The position numbers and the translations under genes were made by a program. Positions 7,840 through 17,786 of a DNA stretch of 51,863 nucleotides are shown here, one piece after another. The stretch comes from Bacteroidaceae bacterium (GTDB lineage Bacteria; Bacteroidota; Bacteroidia; Bacteroidales; Bacteroidaceae), in contig JAGAYH010000047.1 in NCBI GenBank assembly GCA_017940565.1, positions 1 through 51,863 of the forward strand. The letters are read 5' to 3'. Within the stretch, counting starts at the first letter, position 1. Every line of letters begins with the position of its first letter. Under the pieces are notes generated by a model. That model was not told the DNA's origin and ran no database searches. It saw nothing but the letters and a program-made list of their open reading frames with translations.

Positions 7840-7914
7840 GGGCGCTTAGCGCAGCTGGTTTAGAGCATCTGCCTTACAAGCAGAGGGTCGGCGGTTCGAA
7901 TCCGTCAGCGCCCA
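7840..7914 (+). tRNA. tRNA-Val (anticodon TAC), copy 1
   Basis: 75 bases without an encoded CCA. The acceptor arm GGGCGCT pairs with AGCGCCC, discriminator A. The anticodon stem TCTGC/GCAGA holds the loop CTTACAA, giving anticodon TAC, which reads GTA/GTN valine codons. The T arm contains GGTTCGAATCC. Confidence 0.96.
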
Positions 7915-7944: not shown

Positions 7945-8019
7945 GGGCGCTTAGCGCAGCTGGTTTAGAGCATCTGCCTTACAAGCAGAGGGTCGGCGGT
8001 TCGAATCCGTCAGCGCCCA
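7945..8019 (+). tRNA. tRNA-Val (anticodon TAC), copy 2
   Basis: Identical over all 75 bases to the copy 105 bases upstream; only the 30-base spacer between them differs. The two copies share one promoter and one terminator. Confidence 0.96.
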
Positions 8020-12949: not shown

Positions 12950-13249
12950 ATGATCAAGCATGTGGTGATGTTTCGCTTCCGTGACGACGTCGATGTGGCC
13001 ACGCGGCGAATGGTGAGAGAAACCTTCCGCGACCAGATACTGGCCTTGCGCGACCGGCTGTCCATTATCCGCTCCATCGAGGTGGGTTTCAATGTGAACG
13101 AGCAGGAGTTGTGGGACATTTGTCTTGTGGGCGAATTTGACACGCTCGACGATGTGCGCGCCTACAGCGTCTTTCCCGACCACATGGCCGCGGCAGGGGC
13201 GCTGAAACCCTATTTGCAGGGCCGCAGCTGCGTGGATTATGTGGTTTAG
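12950..13249 (+). CDS. Dabb family (stress-responsive A/B barrel) protein
   Basis: 99 residues, the size of a single Dabb domain. It begins MIKHVVMFRFRDDV, the family signature, and ends in the usual hydrophobic VVDYV-type strand after a YSVFPDHMAAA region. Dabb proteins are small dimeric barrels of varied or unknown function. The gene has an unusually strong ribosome binding site for this genome, AAGGAGG at 12933-12939, 10 bases before the ATG. It stands alone between mltF and the his operon. Confidence 0.85.
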   Translation: MIKHVVMFRFRDDVDVATRRMVRETFRDQILALRDRLSIIRSIEVGFNVNEQELWDICLVGEFDTLDDVRAYSVFPDHMAAAGALKPYLQGRSCVDYVV

Positions 13250-13280
13250 ACAGCAAAAAGCTAAAATATAGGCCGGAAAT

Positions 13281-13311
13281 TTGGCACATTGACAGATTTT
13301 TCTTATTTTTG
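13281..13311 (+). promoter_or_regulatory. Promoter of the his operon
   Basis: TTGG at 13281-13284 (with TTTGG from 13280), a 19-bp spacer, and TATTTTTG at 13304-13311. The predicted start of transcription lies only a few bases before the leader peptide ATG at 13320. Confidence 0.65.
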
Positions 13312-13319
13312 CAATCGTA

Positions 13320-13364
13320 ATGAAACAGATGGCAGCCCATATTCATCATCATAAAACCAAATGA
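13320..13364 (+). CDS. hisL: His-rich leader peptide of the his attenuator
   Basis: A 14-codon open frame, MKQMAAHIHHHKTK, then TGA. It carries four His codons (CAT) within five codons at 13338-13352. It starts right after the his promoter and ends 51 bases before an intrinsic terminator, which in turn precedes hisG by 14 bases. The layout is that of a classical histidine attenuator: low His-tRNA stalls the ribosome on the CAT run. The peptide has no ribosome binding site and is nearly leaderless. It is too short to have been detected as an ordinary gene. Confidence 0.85.
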   Translation: MKQMAAHIHHHKTK

Positions 13365-13446
13365 CGGAATCATTCGGCGGGTGATGTTGTGGATGCAACG
13401 GAATATAAAAAACGGGAGACTTGCCGAAACGGGCAGGTCTCTTTTT
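13344..13446 (+). promoter_or_regulatory. his operon attenuator: 1:2, 2:3 and 3:4 pairings
   Basis: Three alternatives can be drawn. 1:2: CATCATC (13344-13350, the His codons) pairs with GGTGATG (13380-13386), with one G-T pair. 2:3 antiterminator: 13373-13382 pairs with 13419-13428 over ten positions, two of them G-T. 3:4 terminator: 13416-13425 with 13432-13441. Segments 1:2 and 2:3 share 13380-13382, and 2:3 uses the 5' arm of the terminator, so each excludes the next. Stalling at the CAT codons would free segment 2, form the antiterminator and let transcription reach hisG. Confidence 0.75.
13416..13446 (+). terminator. Attenuator terminator before hisG
   Basis: A 10-bp stem (GAGACTTGCC at 13416-13425 with GGCAGGTCTC at 13432-13441, one T-G pair) with a 6-base loop and TTTTT at 13442-13446. 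hisG starts 14 bases later. Confidence 0.9.
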
Positions 13447-13460
13447 GATAATACGCAACT

Positions 13461-14312
13461 ATGTTGAGATTAGCAGTACAATCCAAAGGACGCCTCTACG
13501 AAGATACGATGGCGTTGCTCGGCGAAGCCGACATCAAAGTGAGTAAATCAGTGCGCGGCCTCCTGGTAGAAGCCAAAGACTTCCCCATGGAGGTCCTCTT
13601 CCTGCGCGACGACGACATACCGCAGACGGTAGCCAGCGGTGTGGCCGATTTGGGCATCGTAGGCGAAAACGAATTCCTTGAGCGCGGCGAACGGGCCGAC
13701 ATCGTGCGCCGTCTGGGCTTCAGCCGCTGCCGCTTGTCGCTGGCCGTGCCAAAGAGTGAGGACTACCGCGGCCTGGAGTGGTTCCAAGGCAAAAAGATAG
13801 CCACTTCTTATCCCAACATCCTGGGCCGCTTCCTCTCCGAGAATGGCATCCGGGCCGAGGTACACGTCATAACCGGCAGCGTCGAGGTATCTCCCGGCAT
13901 CGGCCTGGCAGATGCCATTTTCGACATCGTCAGTTCCGGCTCCACACTTGTAAGCAACAATCTGCGCGAAGTGGAAACGGTGGTCCAGAGCGAAGCCCTG
14001 CTCATCGGCTACCCGCATATGTCAGCCGAGAAACGCGACGTGCTCGCCCAGCTCCTCTTCCGCCTGCAGGCTGTCAAGGATGCTGAAAACAAGAAATATG
14101 TCCTGATGAACGTGCCCCGCTCCAAGGTTGACGACATCGTGCGCGTGCTGCCCGGAATGAAGAGTCCCACCATCATGCCGCTGGCTGACAAGGAATGGTG
14201 CAGCGTTCACACCGTGCTCGACAAAGACCGCTTCTGGGAAATCATAGGTCAGCTTAAGGACAACGGTGCCCAGGGCATACTGGTGCTGCCTATAGAAAAA
14301 ATGATACCATAA
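13461..14312 (+). CDS. hisG: ATP phosphoribosyltransferase, long form
   Basis: 283 residues, the size of the long HisG with an extra C-terminal ACT-like domain that binds histidine for feedback inhibition. The N-terminus LRLAVQSKGRLYEDTMALL and the GVADLGIVGENEFLE stretch are diagnostic. The PRPP-binding region is at about residue 150 (DAIFDIVSSGSTL). The C-terminal GAQGILVLPIEKM closes the ACT-like domain. It catalyses the first, committed step of histidine synthesis (ATP + PRPP). It is the first structural gene after the attenuator, and hisD starts three bases after its stop codon. Confidence 0.97.
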   Translation: MLRLAVQSKGRLYEDTMALLGEADIKVSKSVRGLLVEAKDFPMEVLFLRDDDIPQTVASGVADLGIVGENEFLERGERADIVRRLGFSRCRLSLAVPKSEDYRGLEWFQGKKIATSYPNILGRFLSENGIRAEVHVITGSVEVSPGIGLADAIFDIVSSGSTLVSNNLREVETVVQSEALLIGYPHMSAEKRDVLAQLLFRLQAVKDAENKKYVLMNVPRSKVDDIVRVLPGMKSPTIMPLADKEWCSVHTVLDKDRFWEIIGQLKDNGAQGILVLPIEKMIP

Positions 14313-14315
14313 ACT

Positions 14316-15608
14316 ATGGAATTGAAAGTCGTAAGATATCCTAATGTCGAAGATTGCGACGCCCTTCTCAAACGTCCGGCCTTCGATGTCACACAACTTT
14401 TCGCCACCGTCGGAGCTGTGGTCGACGCCGTGCGCCGCGAAGGCGACACAGCCCTGCGCCGCTACGAGCTACAATTCGACCGCGTGGCCCTGGACAGCCT
14501 TTTGGTAAGCGACGAGGAGTTTTACGAGGCCATGCATCTGGTTGACGCCCCGTTGAAAGAGGCTGTCCGCCTGGCCAATGCCAATATCGAGCGCTTCCAT
14601 CGCGCCCAAACCTTCAGCACCATTCGTGTGGAGACCAGTCCGGGCGTGGTGTGCGAACAGAAGTCAGTGCCCATAGAGCGGGTAGGGCTCTACGTTCCCG
14701 GCGGCACGGCTCCGCTGTTTTCCACCGTGCTCATGCTGGCCACGCCGGCCAAGATAGCCGGTTGCAGTGAGATTGTGCTTTGCACGCCGCCCGACTCCGG
14801 GGGCCGTATCAACCCTGCTATCCTCTTCGCAGCCAGGCTGGCGGGTGTCAGCAAGGTATTCAAACTTGGCGGTGCCCAGGCTGTGGCAGCCATGGCTTGC
14901 GGTACGGAGAGCGTGCCTCGGGTTGACAAAATCTTTGGCCCCGGCAACCAGTACGTCATGGCCGCCAAGCAGCTCGTAAGTCTCACTGACGTGGCTATAG
15001 ACATGCCTGCCGGACCGAGCGAAGTCGAGGTGCTTGCCGACAGTTCGGCCAATGCGGCCTTCGTAGCCGCCGACCTGTTGAGCCAGGCCGAGCATGGTGC
15101 CGACAGTCAGGTAGTTCTCGTCTCCACTGACGAAGATTTGCTCCGCCAGGTTCAGCAAGAGCTGGCACAGCAGCTGGCTGAACTGCCGCGTCGCGAACTG
15201 GCCGAAAAAGCTCTCAGCCACAGCGTGCTCATCCTTGTCCGCAATATGGACGAAGCCGTGGCTCTGACCAACCGTTACGCTCCTGAACACCTCGTTGTGG
15301 CCACGGCCGACTACCGCAAGGTGGCTGAGCGCATCACCCATGCGGGTTCCGTATTCCTCGGCCCATACAGTTGCGAGAGTGCCGGCGATTATGCCTCCGG
15401 TACCAACCATACGCTGCCCACCAAGGGCTATGCCCGTGCCTACAGCGGGCTGTGCCTGGACAGTTTTATGCGTAAGATGACGCTGCAGGAGCTCTCGGCT
15501 GAGGGAGTGGCCGGCATCGGTCCCGCCGTGGTGGCCATGGCCCGGGCCGAGCGGCTTGATGCCCACAGCAAGGCAATGGAAATCAGGTTGAATCACATAA
15601 ACCGATAA
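14316..15608 (+). CDS. hisD: Histidinol dehydrogenase
   Basis: 430 residues, normal length. The motif [24 protein letters not shown] and the [32 protein letters not shown] stretch are characteristic. The Zn-ligand and catalytic positions (the QAEHG and EH regions, around residues 255-330) are present. It performs the last two steps, histidinol to histidine, with two NAD. It follows hisG by three bases and precedes hisC by one base, so translation is tightly coupled. Confidence 0.97.
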
Positions 15609-15609
15609 T

Positions 15610-16656
15610 ATGAAACCGCTCAAGGAGTTGGTCCGCCCCAACATTTGGGCTCTCAAGCCCTACAGCTCGGCCCGTGATGAGTATCACGGCAAAGCCGCGC
15701 ACACGTTTCTCGATGCCAACGAGAGTCCTTACAACGTGCCTCTCAACCGTTATCCTGACCCTTTGCAAGAAGAGCTGAAGCAGGCCATAGCCCCTCTGAA
15801 GGGGGTGGAACCCCCGCAGATCTTTCTCGGCAACGGCAGCGACGAAGCCATTGACCTTGTATTCCGTGTCTTTTGTGTGCCACAGCGCGACAATGTCGTG
15901 GCCATCGAGCCCACCTACGGCATGTACCAGGTCTGTGCCGACATCAACAATGTGGAATACCGCAAAGTGCTTCTCGGACCTAATTTCGAATTGGAGCCAC
16001 ACAGACTCCTCGAAGTGGTCAACGAGCGCACCAAGGTGGTCTTCCTCTGCTCGCCAAACAATCCCACCGGCAACTGTCTCGACCCTGATGCCGTCGAAAC
16101 CATCGTACGCCAGTTCCAAGGCATTGTTGTCGTGGATGAAGCTTATAGCGATTTTTCAACAAAGCCACAGTTCCGTCTCAGACTCAATGAATTTCCAAAC
16201 CTCATTGTGCTCAATACCTTCTCCAAGGCATGGGCCAGCGCGGCCATCCGTCTGGGCATGGCCTTTGCTTCGCCCGACATCATCAGCCTCTTCACTAAGG
16301 TGAAATATCCCTACAATGTCAACGCCCTGACCATGCAAGCCGCCGCCGACATCCTCGGCCGCCGTTTTGAAGTAGACCGTTGGGTGAAACAGATACTTCA
16401 GGAGCGCACCGCGCTCCTTGCTGCCGTCAGCGAGCTCCCCATTTGCCAGCGCGTGTTCCCCACCGATGCCAACTTCTTCCTGGCCCGCATCGACCAGGCC
16501 GGCCGTGTCTACGAACACCTCGTCAGCCAGGGCATCATTGTACGCAACCGCTCGGGCGTAACCCTATGCAACGACTGTTTGCGCATTACTGTGGGCTCGC
16601 ATACCGAAAACAACCGTCTCCTGGCGGCACTGCGCCAGTACAGGCCCCAATCGTAA
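15610..16656 (+). CDS. hisC: Histidinol-phosphate aminotransferase
   Basis: 348 residues. A class I/II fold, PLP-dependent aminotransferase: [21 protein letters not shown] at the N-terminus, [10 protein letters not shown] (residues about 76-85), SPNNPTGN for the phosphate region, VVDEAYSDF, and the PLP lysine in [15 protein letters not shown]. It converts imidazole-acetol phosphate to histidinol phosphate using glutamate. It is one base after hisD. Confidence 0.96.
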
Positions 16657-16709: not shown

Positions 16710-17786
16710 ATGAATAACAGATTGAAAAAAGCCATCTTCATCGACCGCGACGGCACCCTGATAGCCGAACCGGCCGACGAACAGATCGACAGCTTCGCCA
16801 AGCTCCGTTTCATGCCAGGCGCCCTGACCCAACTCGCCCTCGTGCGGCAGCGCACAGACTTTGAACTCGTCATGGTCTCCAACCAAGACGGCCTCGGCAC
16901 CGAGACCTTTCCCGAAGAAACCTTCTGGCCCGTCCACAACTTCATTCTCGACACCTTCAGGAGCGTTGGCGTCGAGTTTGACAACATCCTCATCGACACT
17001 ACACGGCCTGCCGACGGCGCTCCCACGCGCAAGCCCGGCACAGCCATGCTTGCCGGCTACACCTCCGGCGGCTACGACCTCGCCAACAGCTACGTTGTCG
17101 GTGACCGCGACAGCGATGCCCTCCTGGCCCGCAATCTTGGCTGCCGCTTCATCAGAATCGGTAACGGCCACACTTGGCAACAGGCCGCCGAAACCCTGCT
17201 CCTCGGCCAGCGCACCGCCCATGTCCGCCGCCAGACCGGTGAAACCGACATCGATCTCACCCTCTGTCTCGACGGCAGCGGACAAGCCGACATCCACACC
17301 GGTATCGGCTTCTTCGACCACATGCTCATGCAGCTGCCGCGCCATGGTGGGTTCGACCTTACCCTCCGTTGTCGTGGCGACCTCCATGTCGACGAGCACC
17401 ACACCGTAGAAGACGTGGCCATCGTCCTGGGCACCGCCCTCCGTCAGGCACTTGGCACCAAGCTCGGCCTGTCGCGCTATGGCTTTGTCCTGCCCATGGA
17501 CGACTGTCTCGCGCGTGTTGCCGTCGATCTCGGCGGCCGTCCGTGGCTTGTCTGGCGCGCCACGTTCAGACGCGAACGTGTGGGCGACCTGCCCACGGAA
17601 CTCTTTCCCCATTTCTTCCATAGCCTCGCCGACGCCGCACAGATGAACCTCCATGTCCGCGCCACCGGAGACAACGAGCACCATAAAATCGAGGCCATCT
17701 TCAAAGCCCTGGCGCGAGCCCTGCGCATGGCCCTGCGGCGTGACCCCTGCAGCCTCACGCTCCCCACAAGCAAAGGCCTCCTATGA
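16710..17786 (+). CDS. hisB: Bifunctional histidinol-phosphatase / imidazoleglycerol-phosphate dehydratase
   Basis: 358 residues in two domains. Residues 1-160 form an HAD-type histidinol-phosphatase ([16 protein letters not shown], with the DxD nucleophile; [21 protein letters not shown]). Residues 165-350 form the IGP dehydratase: [28 protein letters not shown], then [14 protein letters not shown], ending with the second metal motif [23 protein letters not shown]. This HisNB fusion, as in enterobacteria, supplies the sixth and eighth pathway steps. It is 53 bases after hisC. The following lipoprotein overlaps its stop codon. Confidence 0.96.

Follow-up and report, generated by a model that had tools for sequence, protein, structure and literature searches.

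A predicted ribosome-mediated histidine attenuator with a near-leaderless leader peptide upstream of the his operon of a Bacteroidaceae bacterium

The stretch of DNA analysed here (the window) comprises 51,863 nucleotides of contig JAGAYH010000047.1 from the assembly GCA_017940565.1 of a Bacteroidaceae bacterium. It carries histidine biosynthesis genes in the order hisG-hisD-hisC-hisB downstream of a putative attenuator; the four genes were identified with NCBIfam models, the curated cutoff of each model being exceeded. The features considered in the following paragraphs are:

12950-13249, + strand: upstream ORF, on the same strand as the leader, ending 70 bases 5' of it
13280-13283, + strand: -33 promoter element TTTG, read from the sequence, with a 20-nt spacer to the -7 box
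13304-13311, + strand: -7 box TATTTTTG (TAnnTTTG, Bacteroidota primary sigma factor), the sole strict box within 45 nt of the leader ATG
13316-13317, + strand: predicted transcription start, 4-5 nt past the -7 box, placed by Flavobacterium offsets
13320-13364, + strand: His leader ORF MKQMAAHIHHHKTK with its stop codon TGA (sequence, conservation)
13332-13364, + strand: region 1, 5' side of a composite 1:2 stem (fold)
13338-13352, + strand: regulatory codons CAT ATT CAT CAT CAT (sequence; the His cluster is conserved)
13370-13396, + strand: 3' side of the composite 1:2 stem, overlapping region 2 (fold)
13373-13382, + strand: region 2, 5' strand of the 2:3 antiterminator, TTCGGCGGGT (sequence, fold, covariation)
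13414-13446, + strand: 3:4 intrinsic terminator (stem 13414-13425 with 13432-13443) and T-run 13442-13446 (T5) (fold, covariation)
13419-13428, + strand: region 3, 3' strand of the antiterminator, ACTTGCCGAA (sequence, fold, covariation)
13461-14312, + strand: hisG, ATP phosphoribosyltransferase (TIGR00070, above cutoff)
14316-15608, + strand: hisD, histidinol dehydrogenase (TIGR00069, above cutoff)
15610-16656, + strand: hisC, histidinol-phosphate transaminase (TIGR01141, above cutoff)
16710-17786, + strand: hisB, bifunctional histidinol-phosphatase/imidazoleglycerol-phosphate dehydratase (NF003937, above cutoff)

Read directly at 13320-13364, the leader consists of the codons ATG AAA CAG ATG GCA GCC CAT ATT CAT CAT CAT AAA ACC AAA TGA, that is, 14 codons including four CAT, and this agrees base for base with a preliminary description made from the sequence of the window. 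It contains a second in-frame ATG (Met4) at 13329, and it is separated from hisG by 96 nt. The same description had proposed a 10-bp antiterminator and a 10-bp terminator followed by T5, and both were recovered: the 2:3 pair is 10 bp long, two G-U pairs included, and the terminator core is formed by the arms GAGACTTGCC and GGCAGGTCTC (13416-13425 with 13432-13441), which the fold lengthens to a stem of 12 bp with -20.3 kcal/mol (z -5.7 against dinucleotide shuffles). A generic scan for sigma-70 promoters and terminators did not list this 3:4 terminator, its sole terminator-like site being on the - strand.

The third proposed element, a 7-bp 1:2 pair made by the His codons themselves, was found in part. 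CATCATC (13344-13350) does pair with GGTGATG (13380-13386), but in the centroid fold this piece lies within a longer, 22-bp composite stem of five pieces, whose 5' sides are 13332-13334, 13337-13341, 13344-13350, 13357-13358 and 13360-13364; the three outer pieces join leader codons to 13380-13396, and the remainder is an inner hairpin over the stop codon. The whole leader folds as the 1:2 stem plus the terminator (-41.0, z -3.3, none of 200 shuffles being as stable). Two fragments that mimic covered His codons before region 4 is made, 13353-13430 and 13362-13430, fold into the 10-bp antiterminator (-17.0; 9 and 6 of 200 shuffles, respectively, as stable), and when region 4 is present and the leader is left out (13366-13448) the terminator wins (-28.4). 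In the fragment 13338-13430, where the His codons are present and both region 4 and the outermost 1:2 strand are missing, the 2:3 antiterminator forms as well (-18.9; 15 of 200 shuffles as stable). Consequently, the 1:2 structure needs its entire 5' side to compete, and without the outer strand it does not clearly beat 2:3.

These features are consistent with a ribosome-mediated transcription attenuator of the his operon at 13304-13446, a reading to which we assign a probability of about 0.8. RNA polymerase would start a few bases 5' of 13320, and a ribosome would load at the nearly 5'-terminal AUG. With ample His-tRNA the ribosome would reach the stop codon at 13362, where it would either cover the start of region 2 or leave and allow 1:2 to form; in both cases region 3 would pair with region 4 and transcription would end at 13442, in the U-run. 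Under a shortage of His-tRNA, the ribosome would wait on the CAU codons at 13344-13352, breaking 1:2 and freeing region 2, which could then pair with region 3 before region 4 is made, allowing read-through into hisG. General footprint values place the edge of a ribosome with CAU 13344-13352 in the A site at about 13357-13363, and that of a ribosome at the stop codon at about 13375, the start of region 2. Shine-Dalgarno (SD) sequences are mostly absent in Bacteroidota, and initiation at a nearly 5'-terminal AUG fits such a phylum.

His leaders are frequent in front of hisG in Bacteroidota. A short ORF with a His cluster lies within the last 220 nt upstream of hisG at 100 of 195 loci and is absent from that interval at the other 95. 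Dinucleotide shuffles of the same 195 upstreams gave a mean of 0.95 (maximum 4 in 20 rounds) and the reverse strand gave 1/195, so that a chance origin of the leader was rejected; the same cluster test with 18 other amino acids gave 0-15 of 195. A search of the family found hisG in 246 of 301 genomes. Leaders were called at 47 of 113 loci, two of them doubtful (L053, L070), in a set made of the best 80 of 554 confirmed candidates from named relatives (L002-L081), a sample of kin and the genus. Across the order, 41 of 53 readable loci had a leader, one of them doubtful (L134, with no box and far from hisG); this sample was drawn as 60 upstreams from among the higher-scoring of 150 genomes with a match, and 7 of the 60 had no recognisable hisG start and were left uncounted. 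Outside the order, leaders were found at 25 of the 29 best-scoring loci of 103 genomes with a match, with a slightly looser leader caller. The leaders contain 3-9 His, with a median of 5 (n=83).

No leader was found at the remaining 66 of the 113 loci, which include those named Prevotella or Xylanibacter and also 10 of the 16 hisG loci of the genus of the window, L110 being one of the 10, with only 133 nt upstream present. Several upstreams are cut by the contig end (L065, L074 and L110 among them), so absence is partial there. In L089 (genome G007) about 295 nt separate the leader stop from hisG, the extra DNA carrying short ATTGATAATTGATAG-like repeats.

The stems were also followed in the relatives. 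A survey restricted to leaders at 60-200 nt from hisG kept 83 of 88 loci (L089 was dropped), and 80 of the 83 have a terminator-like hairpin, with at least 9 pairs in 75. The 2:3 complementarity, measured as the strongest pairing that the sequence downstream of the His codons can make with the 5' arm of the terminator, beats mononucleotide shuffles with a mean z of 2.0 over 80 loci; z is below 1 in 15 of these 80, and the combined z of 18 would hold only for independent loci, which they are not. The 1:2 structure was weakly better than shuffles (mean z -1.6) over 56 loci selected for 2:3 p ≤0.1.

Covariation was examined in an alignment (A1) of the 75 loci, out of the 80 with a terminator-like hairpin, in which this has at least 9 pairs; four rows were re-gapped by script in region 2 for one analysis, and the 3:4 and 2:3 covariation used A1 as aligned. 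It is strong in the 3:4 stem, which is 94.5% paired, against 85.1% in shuffles and 30-60% in slid controls, with double changes at 9 of 12 pairs. In the 2:3 stem it is weaker: 80.2% paired against 75.2% shuffled and 29-46% slid, and 48 double-change cells against 28.5 shuffled. Two of its five measures are weak, being equalled in 61 and 35 of 500 shuffles, and the stem slid by -1 gives 7 pairs with double changes against 6 observed. The window provides a compensatory set of its own, since the common G-C pair beside the core (GGCTT) is A-T here (GACTT) and the change is matched on both the antiterminator and the terminator sides. Conservation of the His codons and of compensatory stems had been set beforehand, in the preliminary description, as the comparison on which the attenuator should be judged; the outcome favours the attenuator, as the codons recur at the loci counted above in all three sets and the stems covary in the relatives, strongly in 3:4 and less so in 2:3. 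As a separate observation, most rows of A1 show a core GGYRRGY / RCTTRCC in regions 2 and 3 (columns 47-54 and 119-125), which is perhaps kept more than pairing alone requires.

These comparisons bear on two other explanations of the hairpin. It could be a mere terminator of the upstream gene at 12950-13249, which shares the strand of the leader and stops 70 bases short of it, the His-rich ORF being incidental; however, chance would give His clusters at about 1 of the 195 loci where 100 have them, none of the other amino acids tested exceeds 15, and the 3:4 and 2:3 stems covary, so this explanation was rejected as extremely improbable. It could also be thought that the leader governs translation of hisG, or recruits some other factor, instead of acting through termination. 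The short distance of 96 nt between leader and hisG would suit such a role, as would L237 and L239, two loci of other orders with His leaders of 27 codons and 9-nt spacing, where no clear terminator with a T-run was seen by eye upstream of hisG and which for that reason may act differently. Nevertheless, the U-run terminator-like hairpin at 80 of 83 leader loci and the antiterminator that competes with it make this alternative very unlikely, and favour attenuation by termination.

Regarding the start of the message, the leader ATG (M1) lies 8 nt after the -7 box in the window. A generic sigma-70 scan gave one promoter-like site on the + strand, at 13281-13309 (9 of 12). In Flavobacterium johnsoniae, the available text deems probable those promoters with 4-5 nt from the -7 element to the transcription start (PMC6847099), and in F. 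psychrophilum the -7 box is given as spanning -12 to -5 in the portion consulted (PMC9723704). Taken together, the 8-nt spacing and these Flavobacterium offsets predict a 5' UTR of 3-4 nt, with the start at 13316 or 13317.

The spacing is not peculiar to this genome. Exactly 8 nt was found at seven Bacteroidales loci: the window, four loci of its genus (L082, L084, L089, L090) and two from named metagenome-assembled genomes (L074, L079); outside the order, six loci have 7-10 nt (L237, L239, L243, L244, L256, L258). The idea that the 8-nt spacing is private to the genus was dropped because of L074, L079 and these six. A strict -7 box is present in 97 of 112 leaders. Taking as start the last ATG before the His cluster, the 97 fall into a group of 12 at 7-10 nt and one of 85 at 17 nt or more, with 11-16 nt empty; the window itself falls at 17 nt by this rule because of Met4. 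When the upstream-most ATG is taken instead, the window is at 8 nt, L102, L118 and L130 at 11-13 and L161 at 1, and the last-ATG rule moves these four loci to 19-26 nt; L031, at 7 nt by the upstream-most ATG, was kept out of the near class. Position -3 also sets the two classes apart: 62% of the 84 leadered leaders have A there, as against 23% of the 13 near ones.

Near loci belong to six family codes (f1, f115, f117, f118, f121 and f135), whereas the named records L074 and L079 carry no code. A HisG tree of 62 loci requires 8 changes of the near/leadered state, and supported branches force at least 6 of these; the tree was a quick one with some long branches, it omits the order sample (60 nt of hisG there), L256 is uncertain in it and the window was scored as near. 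The predicted near-leaderless arrangement recurs across the phylum.

Two further alternatives concern this start. According to the first, the attenuator is real and translation begins at Met4 (13329), 17 nt past the -7 box, so that the message is short-leadered and M1 is unused. Met4 falls within the leadered spacing class (17 nt or more) and retains all the His codons, and it would give a UTR of 12-13 nt, at the edge of that class. Against it, Met4 is missing from the closest relative, L082, whose hisG is 90% identical and in which M1 still lies 8 nt from the box (MKWTEAHIHHHKTK), and this makes M1 the likelier start; L074, L079 and L090 have the near ATG only, and in L084 and L089 the extra in-frame ATG sits upstream of the box. 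Initiation at Met4 is considered rather unlikely on these grounds. The second alternative, a different promoter further upstream that would give the leader an ordinary 5' UTR, finds some comfort in the weak -33 match of L090, and is unlikely given that the window and the 12 other near loci each have a single strict TAnnTTTG no more than 45 nt from the start, that the -33 box of the window sits at spacer 20 and that the -7 box is retained between the window and L082. The near-leaderless start advanced in the preliminary description is upheld by computation as far as the box spacing, the shared 8 nt and the two spacing classes are concerned; it is still a prediction, of 3-4 nt before the AUG, with Met4 as a possible alternative.

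Ordinary genes and other leaders provide a background for this spacing. In a 679.6 kb sample of the same genome, 215 ORFs with free upstream regions (longest ORFs with the upstream-most ATG, used as gene proxies in place of annotation) had a box at 4-9 nt 10 times, at 10-16 once, at 17-30 39 times and at 31-50 36 times. A congener (G010, 45 genes) gave 2 at 4-9, 0 at 10-16 and 8 at 17-30 nt, and a member of the same family (G545, 55 genes) gave 2, 3 and 11, respectively. It seems that a near-leaderless class is present among ordinary genes of this genome too. A general empty zone at 10-16 nt was rejected, as it fits the genome of the window (1/215) and the congener (0/45) but not the other family member (3/55). 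According to the available text of two other reports, about 3.7% of the 5' UTRs of Bacteroides thetaiotaomicron are shorter than 10 nt (PMC7366714) and 87% of those of F. johnsoniae are longer than 10 nt (PMC6847099).

No near-leaderless attenuator besides that of his was found in the 679.6 kb. Another contig of the genome (C21, L194:2177-2322) carries a Phe/Tyr-rich leader, MYQSAVFSFYFYYFTPVTE, whose -7 box lies 29 nt upstream; a strong terminator stands between it and a gene resembling prephenate dehydratase (E 3e-56, short of the curated cutoffs), and the element is likely a Phe attenuator. In the congener G010 (L232:731-935) there is a Trp leader, MTNSFANFWWWQSSELKNCE, also with its box 29 nt upstream and with a terminator, before an ORF that reads like trpB. 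Neither leader matches Rfam at gathering.

Related to Rfam, the window gave only tRNAs at the gathering thresholds, with no His_leader, and a search of 13200-13520 at E values up to 10 gave two unrelated sub-threshold matches and again no His_leader; a T-box riboswitch or another known Rfam family was rejected for the copy in the window because of this lack of a match. Two tRNA genes, at 7840-7914 and 7945-8019, stand in tandem with equal Rfam scores and are possibly a recent duplication. The closest known system is the his operon attenuator of enterobacteria (hisL), which we take to be the Rfam family His_leader, RF00514. In hisL a leader peptide with a run of His precedes alternative 1:2, 2:3 and 3:4 pairings and a terminator before hisG, and the putative attenuator of the window resembles it in the His-run leader, the terminator and the competing 2:3 stem, with a 1:2 stem in the whole-leader fold. 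The Bacteroidota leaders differ from it in their 3-9 His, in the GGYRRGY / RCTTRCC core and, in the window, in the predicted near-leaderless start. Judged on sequence, this is probably a classical ribosome-mediated His attenuator, and a common one in Bacteroidota.

As for earlier work, our literature search found no his attenuator described for Bacteroidota. On the question of priority, a comparative survey of 2010 by Lopatovskaya et al. may include Bacteroidetes. In the accessible part of an article of the same year, leader-peptide systems are given as unknown outside Proteobacteria and Actinobacteria (PMC2965389). A study of F. psychrophilum, in the sections available, already reports structured 5' regions before amino-acid operons and clues from which leader-peptide attenuation in Bacteroidota is inferred, and its main text does not contain the word "histidine" (PMC9723704); a work on the his genes of Bacteroidota mentions attenuation once in its available text, for enterobacteria (PMC8305728). 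A leaderless attenuator peptide is known from Sinorhizobium meliloti, where the available account of trpL (rnTrpL) describes an attenuator peptide of 14 aa with its ORF beginning right at the transcript's 5' terminus (PMC7298713), a position like that predicted for the leader in the window. That case concerns Trp and the Alphaproteobacteria, whereas the window concerns His, with 3-4 nt predicted before the AUG, in an SD-poor phylum. Initiation on leaderless mRNA is likewise discussed, in the part consulted, for the ilvBNC attenuator of Corynebacterium glutamicum (PMC11857589), which responds to other amino acids and belongs to another phylum. Hence the kind is known and the near-leaderless his form would be a new variant.

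A broader reading is offered tentatively, as a possibility somewhat short of an even chance. Bacteroidota may have two designs for the 5' end of the his attenuator, one leadered (17 nt or more from the box, with an A-rich UTR) and one near-leaderless (7-10 nt, a UTR of 2-6 nt and no room for the A-rich stretch), between which lineages would switch repeatedly; attenuation would then be tied to 5'-AUG initiation or to SD-less leadered initiation depending on the lineage, the Phe and Trp leaders of the same genus being leadered. The choice of design may tune the speed of ribosome loading behind the polymerase. With these results the Bacteroidota, including the gut genera Bacteroides and Phocaeicola, gain a well-supported his attenuator, and the natural near-leaderless and leadered pairs of one element provide a way to ask how ribosome loading without SD sequences is matched to RNA polymerase.
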